Assembly: GCF_002204745.1 (NCBI RefSeq)
Contig: NZ_NIRR01000010.1
Coordinates: 62,001 to 126,000, forward strand
Length of the DNA stretch: 64,000 nt
Direction: 5' to 3'
DNA from: Hymenobacter amundsenii
GTDB taxonomy: Bacteria > Bacteroidota > Bacteroidia > Cytophagales > Hymenobacteraceae
Part shown: piece after piece, positions 9,494 through 57,649 of the stretch
Layout: each line of letters opens with the position of its first letter
How positions within the stretch are numbered: the stretch's first letter is position 1
The notes under the pieces: model-generated
What the model saw: the letters and a program-made list of their open reading frames with translations, nothing else
The model's database searches: none
What the model was told of the DNA's origin: nothing
Made by a program: the position numbers and the translations under genes

Positions 9494-9505
9494 GGTTAGA
9501 AGAGA

Positions 9506-9599
9506 GAAGTCAGTATAAAGAAGTGAGAGGCGAGACTTTCGTTCTGGCTACGCGCCATGTGAACGAAAGTCTCACCTCTCACTTCTTTATACTGATTTC
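9506..9599. terminator. 39-bp-arm hairpin between convergent genes
   Basis: The arms 9506-9544 and 9561-9599 are complementary over 39 positions with only two mismatches, both compatible with G:U pairing in RNA. The loop is 16 bases. The right arm ends inside the stop codon of the adenine deaminase gene. It is far longer than a normal terminator and is rich in GAAGTGAGA-type short repeats. Confidence 0.8.
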
Positions 9600-11284
9600 T
9601 AATTTACTGCCACAGCCTCCACGAACCGGAAGGCCTCGCCGTCGAACAACCCTTTATCACTCAGCTTGAGGCTGGGAATAACGAGCAGGGCCATGAATGA
9701 AAGTGTCATGAATGGGGCCTGCAACGGCGAACCGAGGGCTTTAGCTGCCGCGTCGAGGGCAGTGTAGGCGGCCGCTACGGCCGGGCCAGGCTGGTCCGAC
9801 ATGAGGCCGGCCACCGGTAGGGGTAGCACCAACTCCTCGCCGGCGGGCGTTACCACGGCCAGGCCACCGCGGGCTTCCATCACCAGCTGTACGGCCCGGG
9901 CCAGGCTCGCATCGTCGGTGCCCACGGCCGTGATGTTGTGCGAATCGTGGCCCACGCTGCTGGCCAGCGCGCCACCTTGCAGGCCAAAGCCCCGGATGAA
10001 AGCCACCGCCGGCGGGGCGGCGTGGTAACGGTTAACGACGGTGAGCTTGAGGATGTCGCGGCTCAGATCGGGCACCACCAGCCCGTTTTCCACTAGTGCC
10101 GGCTCGTCGTGCCGGGCCGTAATCAGCTGGCCGTCGAAGCACTCGATGAGGCGGATGGTTGGCTGCTGGTTGTTAGCTGAAGCCGAATCTGCCGCTGGTA
10201 TAGGAACCTGGAAATCCCCGGCCTGCACCTCGTGGGCAGTGAAGTTGTTGACGACTTCCACGGGCACGGCCGGAATCAGGGTTTCGCCGTTTTCGGCCAC
10301 CAGCTTGCCATCGAGGTAGGTTTGGCGGACGCGGAAGTTCACCAGGTCATCGACCACGATGAAGTCGGCCGGGTCGCCCTCGCGGAGAAGGCCCACCGGC
10401 AGGCGGTAATGCTCGACGGGGTTGCGGCAGGCCACGCGCAATACCTGCAGTACGTTCTGGCCCCGGGCCACGGCCCGCTGCACCAGCTGGTTGACGTGGC
10501 CCAGCACCAGCGTATCGGGGTGCTTGTCGTCGGAGCAGAACATGAGGTGCTCGTAGTGCTCAGGCAGCAAATCGATCAGGGCCTCGAAGTTGCGGGCCGC
10601 CGAGCCCTCCCGGATCAGGATTTTCATGCCCGCTGCCAGCTTATCAAGCGCCTCGCCGGCCATAAAACACTCATGGTCGGTACTGATGCCGGCCTCGGCG
10701 TAACGAAGGGCGTCGGCCCCGGTCAGGCCGGGGGCGTGGCCGTCCACGGGCCGGTCGTAGCGCTGGGCCAGCCGGATTTTCTCCATCACCACTTCGTCGC
10801 GGTTGAGTACGCCGGGCCAGTTCATCATCTCGGCCAAGTAGCCGATTTCGGGGTGGTCGCGGAACAGCAGCTCAATATCGGCGGCGGTTATTTCGGCCCC
10901 GGCCGTTTCGAAAGGCGTGGCCGGCACGCAGGAGGGCGCCCCGAAACAGAACTTGAACGGCACCTGAGCCGCGTTGGCCAGCATGTACTTTACCCCGGCC
11001 ACGCCCAGCACGTTGCCGATTTCGTGGGGGTCGGAAACGGTGGCCACAGTGCCGTGCACCACGGCCAGCCGGGCAAACTCGGAGGGCACCAGCAGCGAGC
11101 TTTCCACGTGCACGTGGGCATCAACGAAGCCGGGCAGCGCGTAGGGCAGGGCCGGGTTGGGAGCGGTGGCCCCCAGGGGCTCGATTTGGCGAATGCGCCC
11201 ATTGGTTACGTGCACGGTGGCGGGGGTTATCGTGTTGTTAAACAAGTCGATAACGTTGGCCTCAAGGGAGAAAGCGGTGGACAT
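9599..11284 (-). CDS. ade: Adenine deaminase
   Basis: This 561-residue amidohydrolase of the Ade family converts adenine to hypoxanthine and ammonia in purine salvage. The metal-binding HVH is in GFVDAHVHVESS (His57 and His59). Downstream are SDPHEIGNVLGV, the GHAPGLTG loop, STDHECF, CSDDKHPD, and the C-terminal GHDSHNI and MTLSFMALLVIPSLKLSDKG blocks, all specific to this family. The segment near residue 375 (ADSASANNQQPT) looks like a short linker insertion. The start at 11284 is the natural ATG. It is divergent from a small lipoprotein gene. Confidence 0.95.
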   Translation of the reverse strand: MSTAFSLEANVIDLFNNTITPATVHVTNGRIRQIEPLGATAPNPALPYALPGFVDAHVHVESSLLVPSEFARLAVVHGTVATVSDPHEIGNVLGVAGVKYMLANAAQVPFKFCFGAPSCVPATPFETAGAEITAADIELLFRDHPEIGYLAEMMNWPGVLNRDEVVMEKIRLAQRYDRPVDGHAPGLTGADALRYAEAGISTDHECFMAGEALDKLAAGMKILIREGSAARNFEALIDLLPEHYEHLMFCSDDKHPDTLVLGHVNQLVQRAVARGQNVLQVLRVACRNPVEHYRLPVGLLREGDPADFIVVDDLVNFRVRQTYLDGKLVAENGETLIPAVPVEVVNNFTAHEVQAGDFQVPIPAADSASANNQQPTIRLIECFDGQLITARHDEPALVENGLVVPDLSRDILKLTVVNRYHAAPPAVAFIRGFGLQGGALASSVGHDSHNITAVGTDDASLARAVQLVMEARGGLAVVTPAGEELVLPLPVAGLMSDQPGPAVAAAYTALDAAAKALGSPLQAPFMTLSFMALLVIPSLKLSDKGLFDGEAFRFVEAVAVN

Positions 11285-14448: not shown

Positions 14449-14480
14449 ATAACCCAAGTTGCGAACTAGAAACTAAAGCT

Positions 14481-14598
14481 AGCTCCCCTCCTTGGAAAGG
14501 AGGGGCTGGGGGTGGTTGACAATCGTTGAATAACCCCTGTCACGAATATTCTGGCGTCATCAACCACCCCCAACCCCTCCTCATCTGAGGAGGGGAGC
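14481..14598. repeat. Paired-hairpin palindromic repeat, family B
   Basis: Each arm (14481-14519 and 14560-14598) is a small CTCCTT-type hairpin of the form CCCCTCC...GGAGGGG, followed by CTGGGGGTGGTTGA. The arms face each other across about 40 bases. A second copy lies at 49639-49804. Confidence 0.8.
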
Positions 14599-22494: not shown

Positions 22495-22530
22495 CTGGGT
22501 TAGGTGATGGTGATTGGTTGCAGTAGGCGT

Positions 22531-22644
22531 GCCCGGGGTAGGGGCGGGGCTTGTCCCCGCCCGCCGTTTAACGGTTGTCGTGGGCCGGAATCGTTGAGAT
22601 GGTGCGAACGGCGGGCGGGGGCAAGCCCCGCCCCTACCCCGGGC
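22531..22644. repeat. GC-rich palindrome with 38-bp arms
   Basis: The arms 22531-22568 and 22607-22644 match over 38 positions with one mismatch (T/C), around a 38-base loop. It lies between cvfB and the SDR gene, both on the minus strand, so it sits after cvfB in the direction of transcription. Confidence 0.85.
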
Positions 22645-22664
22645 AAACCAGCTAAAGTCTAGCG

Positions 22665-28766: not shown

Positions 28767-28820
28767 GGTCAGCTACTGGTGGTCAGTTCTTGATTCAGAA
28801 CTGACCACCAGTAGCTGACC
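28767..28820. terminator. 24-bp perfect hairpin between adhesin gene and porP
   Basis: Perfect arms at 28767-28790 and 28797-28820 (GGTCAGCTACTGGTGGTCAG and onward) with loop TGATTC. It begins 5 bases beyond the adhesin stop at 28826. It could end or weaken transcription into porP. Confidence 0.75.
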
Positions 28821-49638: not shown

Positions 49639-49804
49639 CTAGAACCTAGCTCCCCTCCTTGGAAAATGTCGCGCATAGAGCGAGTGTGGGCTGGGGGTGG
49701 TTGATGATGGGCGAACGGTTTTTAGCACTAGCTCTAGTCATCGTTCAACGGCAGGTCAACCACCCCCAACCCCTCCTCAGCTGAGGAGGGGAGCTAGGTC
49801 CTAG
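49639..49804. repeat. Paired-hairpin palindromic repeat, family B (copy 2) inside the efflux operon
   Basis: The right arm (49756-49804) matches the 14560 arm; the left arm (from 49639) starts the same but has a different stretch (ATGTCGCGCATAGAGCGAG) in place of GGAGG. It fills the acrA-acrB intercistronic gap. Confidence 0.78.
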
Positions 49805-55126: not shown

Positions 55127-57571
55127 CTACAGCTCGCTCACGGTCACCAGCACGTCGGTGTTGCGGCCGTGGTCGTCGGCGCAGGAGATTTTGAGCGGGC
55201 CGGGGCCGGGGCGGAAGAATACCCGCTCGGTGGCGGCGGCGGCGCGCAGAAACTGGTCGTTCACGTACCAGTACACTTGGCGCACTTCGCTGTCGGTGGT
55301 GCAGCTGAGCAGGAGCTGGGGCTGCTCGCGGGCGTTGAGCACGTACTCTGTGTTGGCGGTGGGCGAGGTGATGCTGGGCGCGCGCTCGGGGCCGCCGCGC
55401 ACGCGCTGGCACTGGGGGTTGTGGGGCGGCAGGCGGCGGTAGGGGAGGCCCTGACTTTCCTTGTAAGCCGCCACTTCGGGCAGCAGGTTGGGGTAGAGCT
55501 CCCGCCGGAACCCGGCCGCCGGCGCGCAGGCCCGGCAGTAGGTGAAGCTGCCGTCGGCCGATACCAGCACCTCCCGCTGGTGCTGGCAGCGCTGGCCGCT
55601 GCTCACACTAGGCAGGAAGTAGTCAATTACCTGGTTGGGGCAGTTCTCACCCGGCACCCGCCCCGATTCGGCACACACCAACCGGAAGTCCAGGGCCGCC
55701 GGGGGCGCGAACCAGTCGTTGGGCGAGTTGTAGGCCAGGGTGTTGAATAGGTCGAAGAGCAGGGGCGTGGCCACGTCGGAGCCGGTGAGGGCGGGGCTGC
55801 CCTGGCCGCTGAAGTTGCCCACCCACACCCCGATGGTATAGTCGCGGTTGTAGCCGATGCTCCAGGCGTCGCGGCGGCCGTAGCTGGTGCCGGTTTTCCA
55901 GGCAATTTTAGGCAAGCGGGTGCTGCTGGCCGCGCCCAGCGGCAAATCGGGCCGGGTAAGCTGGCTCAGGATGTCGGTGACGAGGAAGGCGGCGGCGGGG
56001 GAGACCAATGCAACTCCTAGCCCTCTGCCGGGCGCCTCACCCCCTAGCCCCCTCTCCGAAAAAGGAGAGGGGGAACTAGCTTTTAGTTTTTTAGAGCTAG
56101 ATAAACGACTAGCTTCTAGTTCCCCCTCTCCTTTTTCGGAGAGGGGGCCAGGGGGTGAGGCGCCCGCATGGATGTTAACCGTCAACCCTAACGGCCCATA
56201 CCGTCCCCCATTCGCCAGCGTTGCATACAGCCCCGTCAGTTCTTCCAGACTCGCCCCGCAGCCGCCCAGAATGCTGCTCAGGCCCAGGCGGGCGCGGTTG
56301 CGGGCCACGCTGCGGAAGCCGGCCCGCTGGAGCTGCTCAGTGAAAGTGGGCACGCCCAAATCCTGGAGCACGCGCACGGCCGGGATGTTGAGCGAGTAGG
56401 CTAGGGCTCGCTCCAGCGTCACTTCGCCGTTGCAGTTCTTGTCGAAATTTTCGGGACGGTAGCCCTGGAAGTTGGTGGGCACGTCGGGCAGCAGCAGCTT
56501 GGGCGTGACTAGGCCCCTATCCAGGGCCAAAGCGTAGAGGAAGGGCTTGAGGGTGCTGCCGGGGGAGCGCACGGCCGTGATGCCATCGTTCTGGCCCTGG
56601 CCCCGGAAGTCGCGGAAATCGGCCGAGCCCACGTAGGCTTCCACCCGCCGGGTGCGGTTGTTCACCACCAGCACGGCCGCCTGCGAAATGCCCAGCTCTC
56701 GCAGGCGGCGCACGTAGTTACGGGTCAGGTCCTCGGCTTTGCTTTGCTTGGCCCGTTGCAGGCTGCTGCGGATGATGGCCGCGTGCGGATACTGGCGCAC
56801 CAGCCGGCGCGAGAGGTGGGGGGCCAGCGTGGGGGCCGCGTGGCGCTGTACTTCCAGCGGCTCCAGCAGGGCATCGGCAATATCTTGCTTCGGAAACAGC
56901 TTGGCCGCCCTGAAGCGGCGGAGCCAGCGGTTCCGTTCCCGGCGCACGGCCGCGTTGTTCTTGCCCAGCACCAGGCCCCGGGGACGGTTCGGGATGATGG
57001 CCAGCGTCACGGTCTGGGCCAGGGAGAGGTAGTCGGGCGTTTGCTGGAAGTAGAGCAGGGCGGCCGATTTCACGCCCTCCACGTTGCCGCCGTAGGGTAC
57101 CAGATTCAGGTAGAGCTGCAGGATTTCGTCCTTGCTGTGGTGGGCTTCGAGCTGGGTGGCCCGGGCCATTTCGAGCAGCTTGTTGCCGAAGGTGCGCTCC
57201 TTGGGTTCCAGCAGCCTCGCCACCTGCATGGTAATGGTGCTGGCCCCGGTAGTGCGCCCCGTGCCGAACACGTTGCGCCCAGCCGCTTGCACCAGGGCCA
57301 GCGGGTTCACCCCGAAATGCCACCGGAACCACCGGTCTTCCTTCTCAATGATGGCCCGGCGCAGCACTGGCGTAATCTCGCGCAGCTCCGTTTTCATCCG
57401 CCACTTCTGGGTGGGGTTGAGGTAGGCGTGGAGCACCGTACCATCCTGGGCCAGCACCAGGGGCGAATACTGCGGCGCGGGCGGCACCGGAAACAGCCGG
57501 TCCAGCCCCAGCAGCAGCCCGCCCAGGATGCCCAGGACCACCAAAAGCCGAATGCCGATGCGCTGCTTCAT
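55127..57571 (-). CDS. pbpC: Penicillin-binding protein 1C (peptidoglycan glycosyltransferase/transpeptidase) with in-frame repeat insertion
   Basis: This 814-residue bifunctional PBP starts at the ATG at 57571. It has a membrane anchor (residues 6-24), a GT51 domain with the catalytic Glu in IIEKEDRWFRWHFGVNP, then GASTITMQVARLLEPKERTF. The transpeptidase domain has SxxK at Ser339-Lys342 (SPGSTLKPF), the SxN at Ser393-Asn395 and KTGTS at 559-563. The C-terminal BiPBP_C-like domain begins near residue 740. Residues about 470-514 are encoded by a 136-bp palindrome and lie between the SxN and KTG motifs, in a probable surface loop. The frame is intact, so the protein is predicted to be made with the insertion. 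Confidence 0.94.
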   Translation of the reverse strand: MKQRIGIRLLVVLGILGGLLLGLDRLFPVPPAPQYSPLVLAQDGTVLHAYLNPTQKWRMKTELREITPVLRRAIIEKEDRWFRWHFGVNPLALVQAAGRNVFGTGRTTGASTITMQVARLLEPKERTFGNKLLEMARATQLEAHHSKDEILQLYLNLVPYGGNVEGVKSAALLYFQQTPDYLSLAQTVTLAIIPNRPRGLVLGKNNAAVRRERNRWLRRFRAAKLFPKQDIADALLEPLEVQRHAAPTLAPHLSRRLVRQYPHAAIIRSSLQRAKQSKAEDLTRNYVRRLRELGISQAAVLVVNNRTRRVEAYVGSADFRDFRGQGQNDGITAVRSPGSTLKPFLYALALDRGLVTPKLLLPDVPTNFQGYRPENFDKNCNGEVTLERALAYSLNIPAVRVLQDLGVPTFTEQLQRAGFRSVARNRARLGLSSILGGCGASLEELTGLYATLANGGRYGPLGLTVNIHAGASPPGPLSEKGEGELEASRLSSSKKLKASSPSPFSERGLGGEAPGRGLGVALVSPAAAFLVTDILSQLTRPDLPLGAASSTRLPKIAWKTGTSYGRRDAWSIGYNRDYTIGVWVGNFSGQGSPALTGSDVATPLLFDLFNTLAYNSPNDWFAPPAALDFRLVCAESGRVPGENCPNQVIDYFLPSVSSGQRCQHQREVLVSADGSFTYCRACAPAAGFRRELYPNLLPEVAAYKESQGLPYRRLPPHNPQCQRVRGGPERAPSITSPTANTEYVLNAREQPQLLLSCTTDSEVRQVYWYVNDQFLRAAAATERVFFRPGPGPLKISCADDHGRNTDVLVTVSEL
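56030..56165. repeat. 136-bp palindromic repeat inserted in frame within pbpC
   Basis: The arms 56030-56079 and 56116-56165 are complementary over 50 bases with one mismatch. Each arm carries a CCCCTCTCC/GGAGAGGGG hairpin plus a GGGGGTGAGG-like outer segment. On the minus strand it encodes residues 470-514 of PbpC (PPGPLSEKGEGELEASRLSS through SPSPFSERGLGGEAP). Confidence 0.92.
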
Positions 57572-57649
57572 GGGGGCAAGATAACGGTTGATGGGCCTTC
57601 GGCGTGGTGGCTTTCCCGTATATTCGTCAACCAACTACGCTTCCCTGCT

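Follow-up and report, generated by a model that had tools for sequence, protein, structure and literature searches.

In-frame palindromic inserts concentrated at one loop of penicillin-binding protein 1C across the genus Hymenobacter

Palindromic inserts that keep the reading frame are known above all from the obligate intracellular Rickettsia, where they have mostly been catalogued gene by gene. The Rickettsia palindromic elements (RPE) were reportedly described by Ogata et al. in 2000 and 2002 and by Claverie and Ogata in 2003. According to the extracts of the literature available, these elements are about 150 bp long, fall into several families and lie in frame inside unrelated genes; the proteins that bear them apparently still work, and the identity of the repeats fades with time (PMC10969869, PMC3733652, PMC6649704). 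In one of these accounts, REPs are also reported inside coding regions, with flexible loops and linkers suggested as their sites, and different REPs are found at about the same recB site in two Xanthomonas species (PMC3733652). REP doublets, or REPINs, are described in similar extracts as two short hairpins in inverted orientation (PMC3116915, PMC3733652). The QMITE repeats of Coxiella are palindromic, are described as MITEs and in some cases yield in-frame additions (PMC5896051), and in the mitochondria of Nematomorpha inverted repeats lie within coding sequence and are gained and lost between species (PMC6649704), both as given in partial accounts.

The inserts that we describe in Hymenobacter extend the phenomenon of the Rickettsia palindromic elements to another phylum, and their recurrence is unusual. 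As with the RPE, multi-copy palindromes lie in frame within unrelated genes, here those of PbpC, a PD-(D/E)XK protein, an RND pump and MetH; only for pbpC do dN/dS and motifs allow us to infer that the host gene is functional. The likeness to RPE that a preliminary description had proposed for this Bacteroidota cell-wall enzyme thus stands at the level of a multi-copy in-frame palindrome in functional-looking genes, with no comparison of sequences with RPE. The differences are that Hymenobacter is a free-living member of the Bacteroidota, and that, throughout the genus, unrelated families have filled one loop again and again. The Hymenobacter element resembles the REPINs, being also made of two short hairpins in inverted orientation, but no RAYT linkage was found for it, its arms are longer, and it recurs genus-wide rather than in two species. 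It shares with QMITE the palindromic repeats and the in-frame additions, whereas a recurrent site is absent from the extract of PMC5896051 (sequences were not compared). In Nematomorpha both arms encode conserved residues, as far as the partial account goes, while the Hymenobacter inserts add extra, non-conserved ones. In the open-licence PMC papers searched, we found in-frame palindromes described neither for Hymenobacter nor for any penicillin-binding protein (PBP), and no case of one-site recurrence on this scale, by unrelated families, in a free-living Bacteroidota genus.

The DNA analysed, hereafter the window, is a stretch of 64,000 nucleotides from Hymenobacter amundsenii, and its features are collected in Table 1. 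The palindromic element inside pbpC consists of the hairpin CCCCCTCTCC-GAAAAA-GGAGAGGGGG and a mirror copy of it, with CCTCACCCCC/GGGGGTGAGG shoulders and an AT-rich centre. The preliminary description had given 50-bp arms with one mismatch around a 36-base loop, and the ungapped stem scan returned nearly the same geometry (51-nt arms, one mismatch, 36-nt centre) with a score of 48, compared with at most 10 in 100 codon shuffles of the loop and at most 11 in 27 pbpC windows of equal length. An inverted-repeat search gave longer and less perfect arms, of 65 nt and 89% complementarity (56029-56093 and 56102-56166). The predicted RNA fold of the element reached -125 kcal/mol, against a mean of -52.25 (sd 4.32) in 200 shuffles (z -16.84). 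The Rfam scan of the window returned nothing reaching the gathering score, and tblastn of the insert peptide against the plasmid collection gave no match at E<=0.01.

Related paired hairpins had also been proposed in intergenic positions elsewhere in the window. Two elements of the same build indeed lie between long ORFs, but their kinship does not extend to the sequence: BLAST with the pbpC element (E<=1e-3) matched one place in the window only, and neither of the two. The window also contains another palindromic sequence at 22530-22645, a 39-nt GC-rich inverted repeat (97%) with a 38-nt spacer between long ORFs, and strong inverted repeats of different sequence at 9505-9600 (40 nt, 95%) and 28767-28820 (24 nt, 100%).

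Table 1. Features of the window (nucleotide positions) and in-frame copies of the element in the same genome (residue positions)
Feature	Position	Strand or frame	Remarks
pbpC (penicillin-binding protein 1C)	55127..57634	-	ORF open across insert; Pfam and NCBIfam matches
Variable segment, transpeptidase domain	56006..56188	-	61 codons in window; between ..GLYATLANGGRYGPL and VSPAAAFLVTDIL..; alignments and insertion map
Whole palindromic element, family A, in frame in pbpC	56029..56166	-	138 bp, 46 codons
51-nt arm, pbpC-upstream	56116..56166		contains short hairpin CCCCCTCTCC-GAAAAA-GGAGAGGGGG (pbpC strand); converted from loop coordinates
AT-rich centre, 36 nt	56080..56115		between both arms
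51-nt arm, pbpC-downstream	56029..56079		complementary to upstream arm, one mismatch; converted from loop coordinates
Paired-hairpin element, same architecture, other sequence	49639..49804		between ORFs >=200 aa
Paired-hairpin element, same architecture, other sequence	14480..14598 (ends approximate)		between ORFs >=200 aa
Whole element, pbpC	residues 490-536 of ORF	in frame	Pfam-supported
Whole element, PD-(D/E)XK-domain protein	residues 500-546	in frame	Pfam-supported
Whole element, RND transporter	residues 499-555	in frame	directly after ACR_tran stretch 16-493; Pfam
Whole element, MetH	residues 365-400	in frame	between S-methyl_trans 48-354 and Pterin_bind 422-660; Pfam
Partial element, topoisomerase (L233)		in frame	linker between Topoisom_bac and Toprim_Crpt; Pfam
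Partial element, DUF3686 ATPase (L215)		in frame	Pfam

The identification of the gene as that of PBP1C was confirmed: its product matches the NCBIfam model TIGR02073 (PBP_1c) with 704 bits and carries the Pfam domains Transgly, Transpeptidase and BiPBP_C. The reading frame, of 835 codons counted from TTG and 814 from the likely ATG, was also correctly described as open, with no stop in the ORF list anywhere across the palindromic insert. The element lies between the SxN and KTG motifs, and the about 45 residues first assigned to it (470-514) become about 46, at about 469-515 numbered from the likely ATG. It had further been suggested that the transpeptidase motifs remain and that the protein may work. 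Coherently, the SxxK, SxN and KTG patterns are present together in 111 of the 113 full PbpC of the genus (a set that excludes the frame-lost genes L140 and L209), and outside the loop 12 pairwise comparisons gave dN/dS values of 0.04-0.15; for the window gene against L119 and L120 the value is 0.12-0.13. The rest of PbpC is under purifying selection and, since the three motifs are also kept, sequence comparison makes it very likely that the protein is functional despite the insert.

In the predicted structure model, of modest confidence (mean pLDDT 65; model numbering is 53 lower than that of the ORF), residues 437-483, which form the insert, fall inside a stretch with pLDDT<50 (434-485) flanked by two helices. 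A Foldseek search with this model retrieved class A PBPs, as expected. In the alignment, PBP1A of P. aeruginosa (4oon) likewise has a long segment at the loop position, and the loop varies in other class A PBPs too. On the basis of this model and of the insertion map of the genus presented below, the insert appears compatible with the protein fold, i.e., it occupies a loop position.

The palindrome belongs to a multi-copy family. In the genome from which the window comes (G000, 4.58 Mb in 130 contigs), the 156-bp stretch containing the element gave 104 alignments at E<=10 and 37 merged places at E<=1e-3 (31 fetched stretches and the window), a count that leaves out a few weak matches not among the fetched stretches. 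Six of the 37 places are in frame inside Pfam-supported genes, with four whole elements and two partial ones (Table 1). The Pfam scan took in seven copy-spanning ORFs of this genome besides pbpC and found a family for five; the ORFs in L230 and L234, without a Pfam family, span a short element match. Of the 12 full-length copies that do not lie in one of the four genes, nine are interrupted in all six frames, whereas each of the four whole in-gene copies has two, which is the pattern expected from an anti-stop filter.

Among the sequences compared, those closest to the window element over its 138 bp are copies in the PD-(D/E)XK gene, with 91% identity in G085, 89% in G103 and 88% in the same genome. 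Identity to other pbpC inserts is 87% in G103 and 82% in the sister L119. As a counterweight, some pbpC inserts are near to it too, namely those of L123 (87%), L137 (84%) and L010 (83%). Within the genome, the pbpC and L002 copies are mutual nearest neighbours. A coding-competent sub-lineage of the element in this genome was considered and is not general, as the nearest copies to L221 and L232 do not lie in identified genes. As a separate observation, L221 (G000:C82:10155-17049) is likely an RND efflux operon, with family A matches between genes and a whole element inside the pump gene; ACR_tran was identified by Pfam, and the outer-membrane and membrane-fusion neighbours by eye only.

Across the genus, pbpC was found in 118/120 Hymenobacter genomes and the loop could be parsed in 115 of them (all except L187, L204 and L211). 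The variable segment is 13-71 codons long, most often 14: 23/115 loops have 13-15 codons, 31 have no more than 18 and are thus short, without the segment, and 84 are longer. All five outgroups of the same order have short loops. Two of the checks proposed with the preliminary description, on the absence of the segment from relatives and on the existence of further genomic copies, thus turned out in its favour. The long loops are in frame and stop-free in 82/84 cases, i.e., a filter on frame and stops is observed here too. The two exceptions, L140 (G132) and L209 (G096), both have palindromic inserts in a pbpC with frame loss or a stop, and are recent knock-outs or sequence errors.

A strong inverted repeat (score >=12, a value unreached by any codon shuffle or control window) is present in 46/84 long loops and in 0/31 short ones, and the palindromic loops have 15-57 extra codons. 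The 38 long loops that fail the palindrome test are interpreted here as decayed inserts, although ordinary loop growth is possible instead. On peptide motifs drawn up after the loops had been inspected, the 115 loops were labelled as family A (37), family B (18), other (29) or short (31). Family A is GC-rich and of the window type, while family B is AT-rich and reads NEELRMRNEEL..NSSFLIPHSSL. The labels and the palindrome test do not fully coincide: some loops labelled other are palindromic (L177, L194 and L201), and some with an A or B label fail the test (e.g., L192, L138, L162 and L173). Family A apparently occurs in all three codon phases, on the basis of the 30 of its 37 loops that could be scored on the left arm; a few of these may match the right arm where the left is eroded (e.g., L141). 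Family A matches are lacking altogether in 14/120 genomes, and the co-occurrence of family A genome-wide and in pbpC was not used as a test because the pbpC insert is itself a match. The 71-codon loop (L148, G119:C1:2591454-2594428) seems to consist of one and a half family A elements. Genome G119 also has the most first-look element candidates of the 120 (137).

The insertion map of the 113 PbpC shows how strongly the insertions concentrate at this loop. Indeed, at least 8 extra residues are found there in 80 proteins and in one more row just beside it. Elsewhere in the C-terminal part, one row has up to 23 residues and 12 rows have up to 11, and at the N-terminus there are eight row counts at three sites. 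Insertions of at least 8 residues outside the loop are thus rarer and shorter than those at the loop.

The distribution of these states was then read on a FastTree phylogeny of the PbpC protein without the loop, and on a DNA tree, from which L140 and L209 were left out. Filled and empty loops alternate between sister species: the filled L013 is sister to the empty L023 (support 95), and the pairs L012/L125 (support 99) and L140/L150 (support 97) also consist of one member with and one without the insert. Furthermore, family A in L171 faces family B in its near relative L185 (support 83), and the two families also differ between the near relatives L182 and L179/L186 (support 89). The minimum number of changes by parsimony on the protein and DNA trees was 29 for palindromic yes/no, 26-27 for A/B/short (29 loops labelled other excluded) and 19-21 for long/short; with the outgroups included, it was 29, 28 and 22, and 55 when all labels were kept separate. 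Shuffled labels required on average 35.7-36.3, 37.6-38.7 and 27.3-27.5 changes, respectively, with minima of 27-29, 29-31 and 22-23. Parsimony cannot separate gain from loss; however, the changes are fewer than the shuffled means and yet many, which indicates some inheritance plus much turnover. Judging from these sequences, one and the same PbpC loop has been filled repeatedly by at least two unrelated families, A and B.

The same kind of insert is found in other proteins. Among the matches listed for the MetH linker query, an unbroken match over the linker was present in 38/120 genomes and two separate matches in 79, often a few bases apart where both halves were listed; a split match could also conceal an insert that fails to align. 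In the best 30 of the 38 linker-spanning loci, the linker is palindromic in 21 (19/21 plus 2/9, the two being L256 and L264), the genome of the window included, and the palindromes belong to different families. The palindromic copy in that genome (L232, G000:C119:123299-127405, insert at 2001-2107) keeps the frame and lies in the linker that joins the homocysteine and pterin domains. Of 30 PD-(D/E)XK loci fetched, 10 were parsed and eight are palindromic, with inserts that include a third kind, ELSVDSCQLSV..TTDNQQQTTDL.

We consider it highly probable that the pbpC segment represents one copy, in frame, of a dispersed, non-autonomous palindrome, although expression data are lacking and the mobilising enzyme has not been identified. 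Under the mechanism that we propose, several unrelated families of such elements, each with a pair of short, inversely oriented hairpins on either side of an AT-rich centre that varies, would insert widely in Hymenobacter genomes. Copies landing in genes would be lost unless they keep the frame, are stop-free and fall in a flexible loop or linker, and the PBP1C loop between SxN and KTG would be one such permissive place, with many independent fills. The insert would be translated straight through as a probably disordered extension, and would then decay by point mutation and deletion until the loop is short again. Translation of the insert, its near-neutrality, mobility as its source and the order of insertion followed by decay are inferences.

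Mobilisation by RAYT, the Y1-type REP-associated transposase, which would make the element a REPIN, is suggested by the two inverted hairpins and by the presence of Y1_Tnp in 83/120 genus genomes. This reading is not supported, and we consider it quite unlikely: the Y1_Tnp profile has no match in the genome of the window or in the element-rich genome G040, and, of 20 strong Y1 genes hand-picked among the stronger matches listed, none has a family A or B copy closer than about 2 kb (86.8 kb examined). The same search recovered family A in 30/31 stretches holding copies from the window's genome. Flanks of pbpC from which the loop had been masked (267.7 kb), taken as background, were likewise empty of family A and B copies, so the result on the Y1 neighbourhoods counts only against a REPtron-like arrangement, in which copies flank the gene. 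The copies of the genome have inverted ends and no consistent target-site duplication, and no GTAG/CGTC tag stands out by eye in 16 full-length copies (no formal test). The flanks extend the palindrome in some copies (L005, L216 and L217) and not in others. In L216 and L217, the palindrome continues for 12-18 bp beyond the element, in sequence peculiar to each copy, so that the target looks palindromic itself. A composite parent transposon between clustered copies was also sought, and no transposase was recognised by eye in L221 and L215 (not all ORFs were scanned); the ORFs between copies are like an RND efflux operon in L221, and encode the DUF3686 ATPase and other products in L215.

The alternation along the tree could also be read as the divergence of a single ancient insert, inherited vertically, with arms kept complementary and swapped by gene conversion or template switching. 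Some phylogenetic signal in the states agrees with this, as do the centres of L009 and L119, which are alike by eye, with hairpin tips that differ in step on both arms. It is nevertheless unlikely, given the GC-rich and AT-rich families at the same place in near relatives, the three codon phases, the short loops interleaved on the tree and the nearest relatives of the window element, which sit in another gene. Little credence can be given to a loop selected for diversification (e.g., to evade phage, bacteriocin or antibiotic), for which palindromes would be mere raw material: the strong localisation of the insertions and the great sequence diversity of the loop would be coherent with it, but the same pattern is seen in other proteins, among them methionine synthase, a cytoplasmic enzyme, and 23/115 loops have just 13-15 codons. 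Finally, an intervening sequence, removed from the RNA or bypassed by the ribosome, would fit the very stable hairpin; however, excision would not need the frame to be kept free of stops, as it is in nearly all long loops, and the window lacks an Rfam match at the gathering score, which makes this reading very improbable.

Insertion by mobile palindromes, followed by filtering and decay, thus remains our preferred reading, and a further idea can be attached to it only tentatively. It is possible that palindromic DNA is remodelling Hymenobacter proteins genus-wide, with a few permissive loops as standing landing sites, where any available palindromic family may settle, decay and be replaced, and that in-gene stop-free copies serve as a coding-competent pool from which other genes are invaded in turn. 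The notion of such a pool comes from the window pbpC insert being closest to the nuclease-domain gene copies.

If RAYT is absent, the question arises of what moves these palindromes. The refilling of the same spot by different repeats in related species indicates that short repeated DNA appears to lengthen permissive loops of working proteins. In Hymenobacter, dozens of fills and apparent decays can be compared at a single orthologous position of an enzyme that is under purifying selection, and thus it becomes possible to measure how often such inserts arise, how well they are tolerated and what becomes of them. Together, these inserts amount to a map, made by nature, of the places where a PBP and MetH have loops that tolerate insertion.
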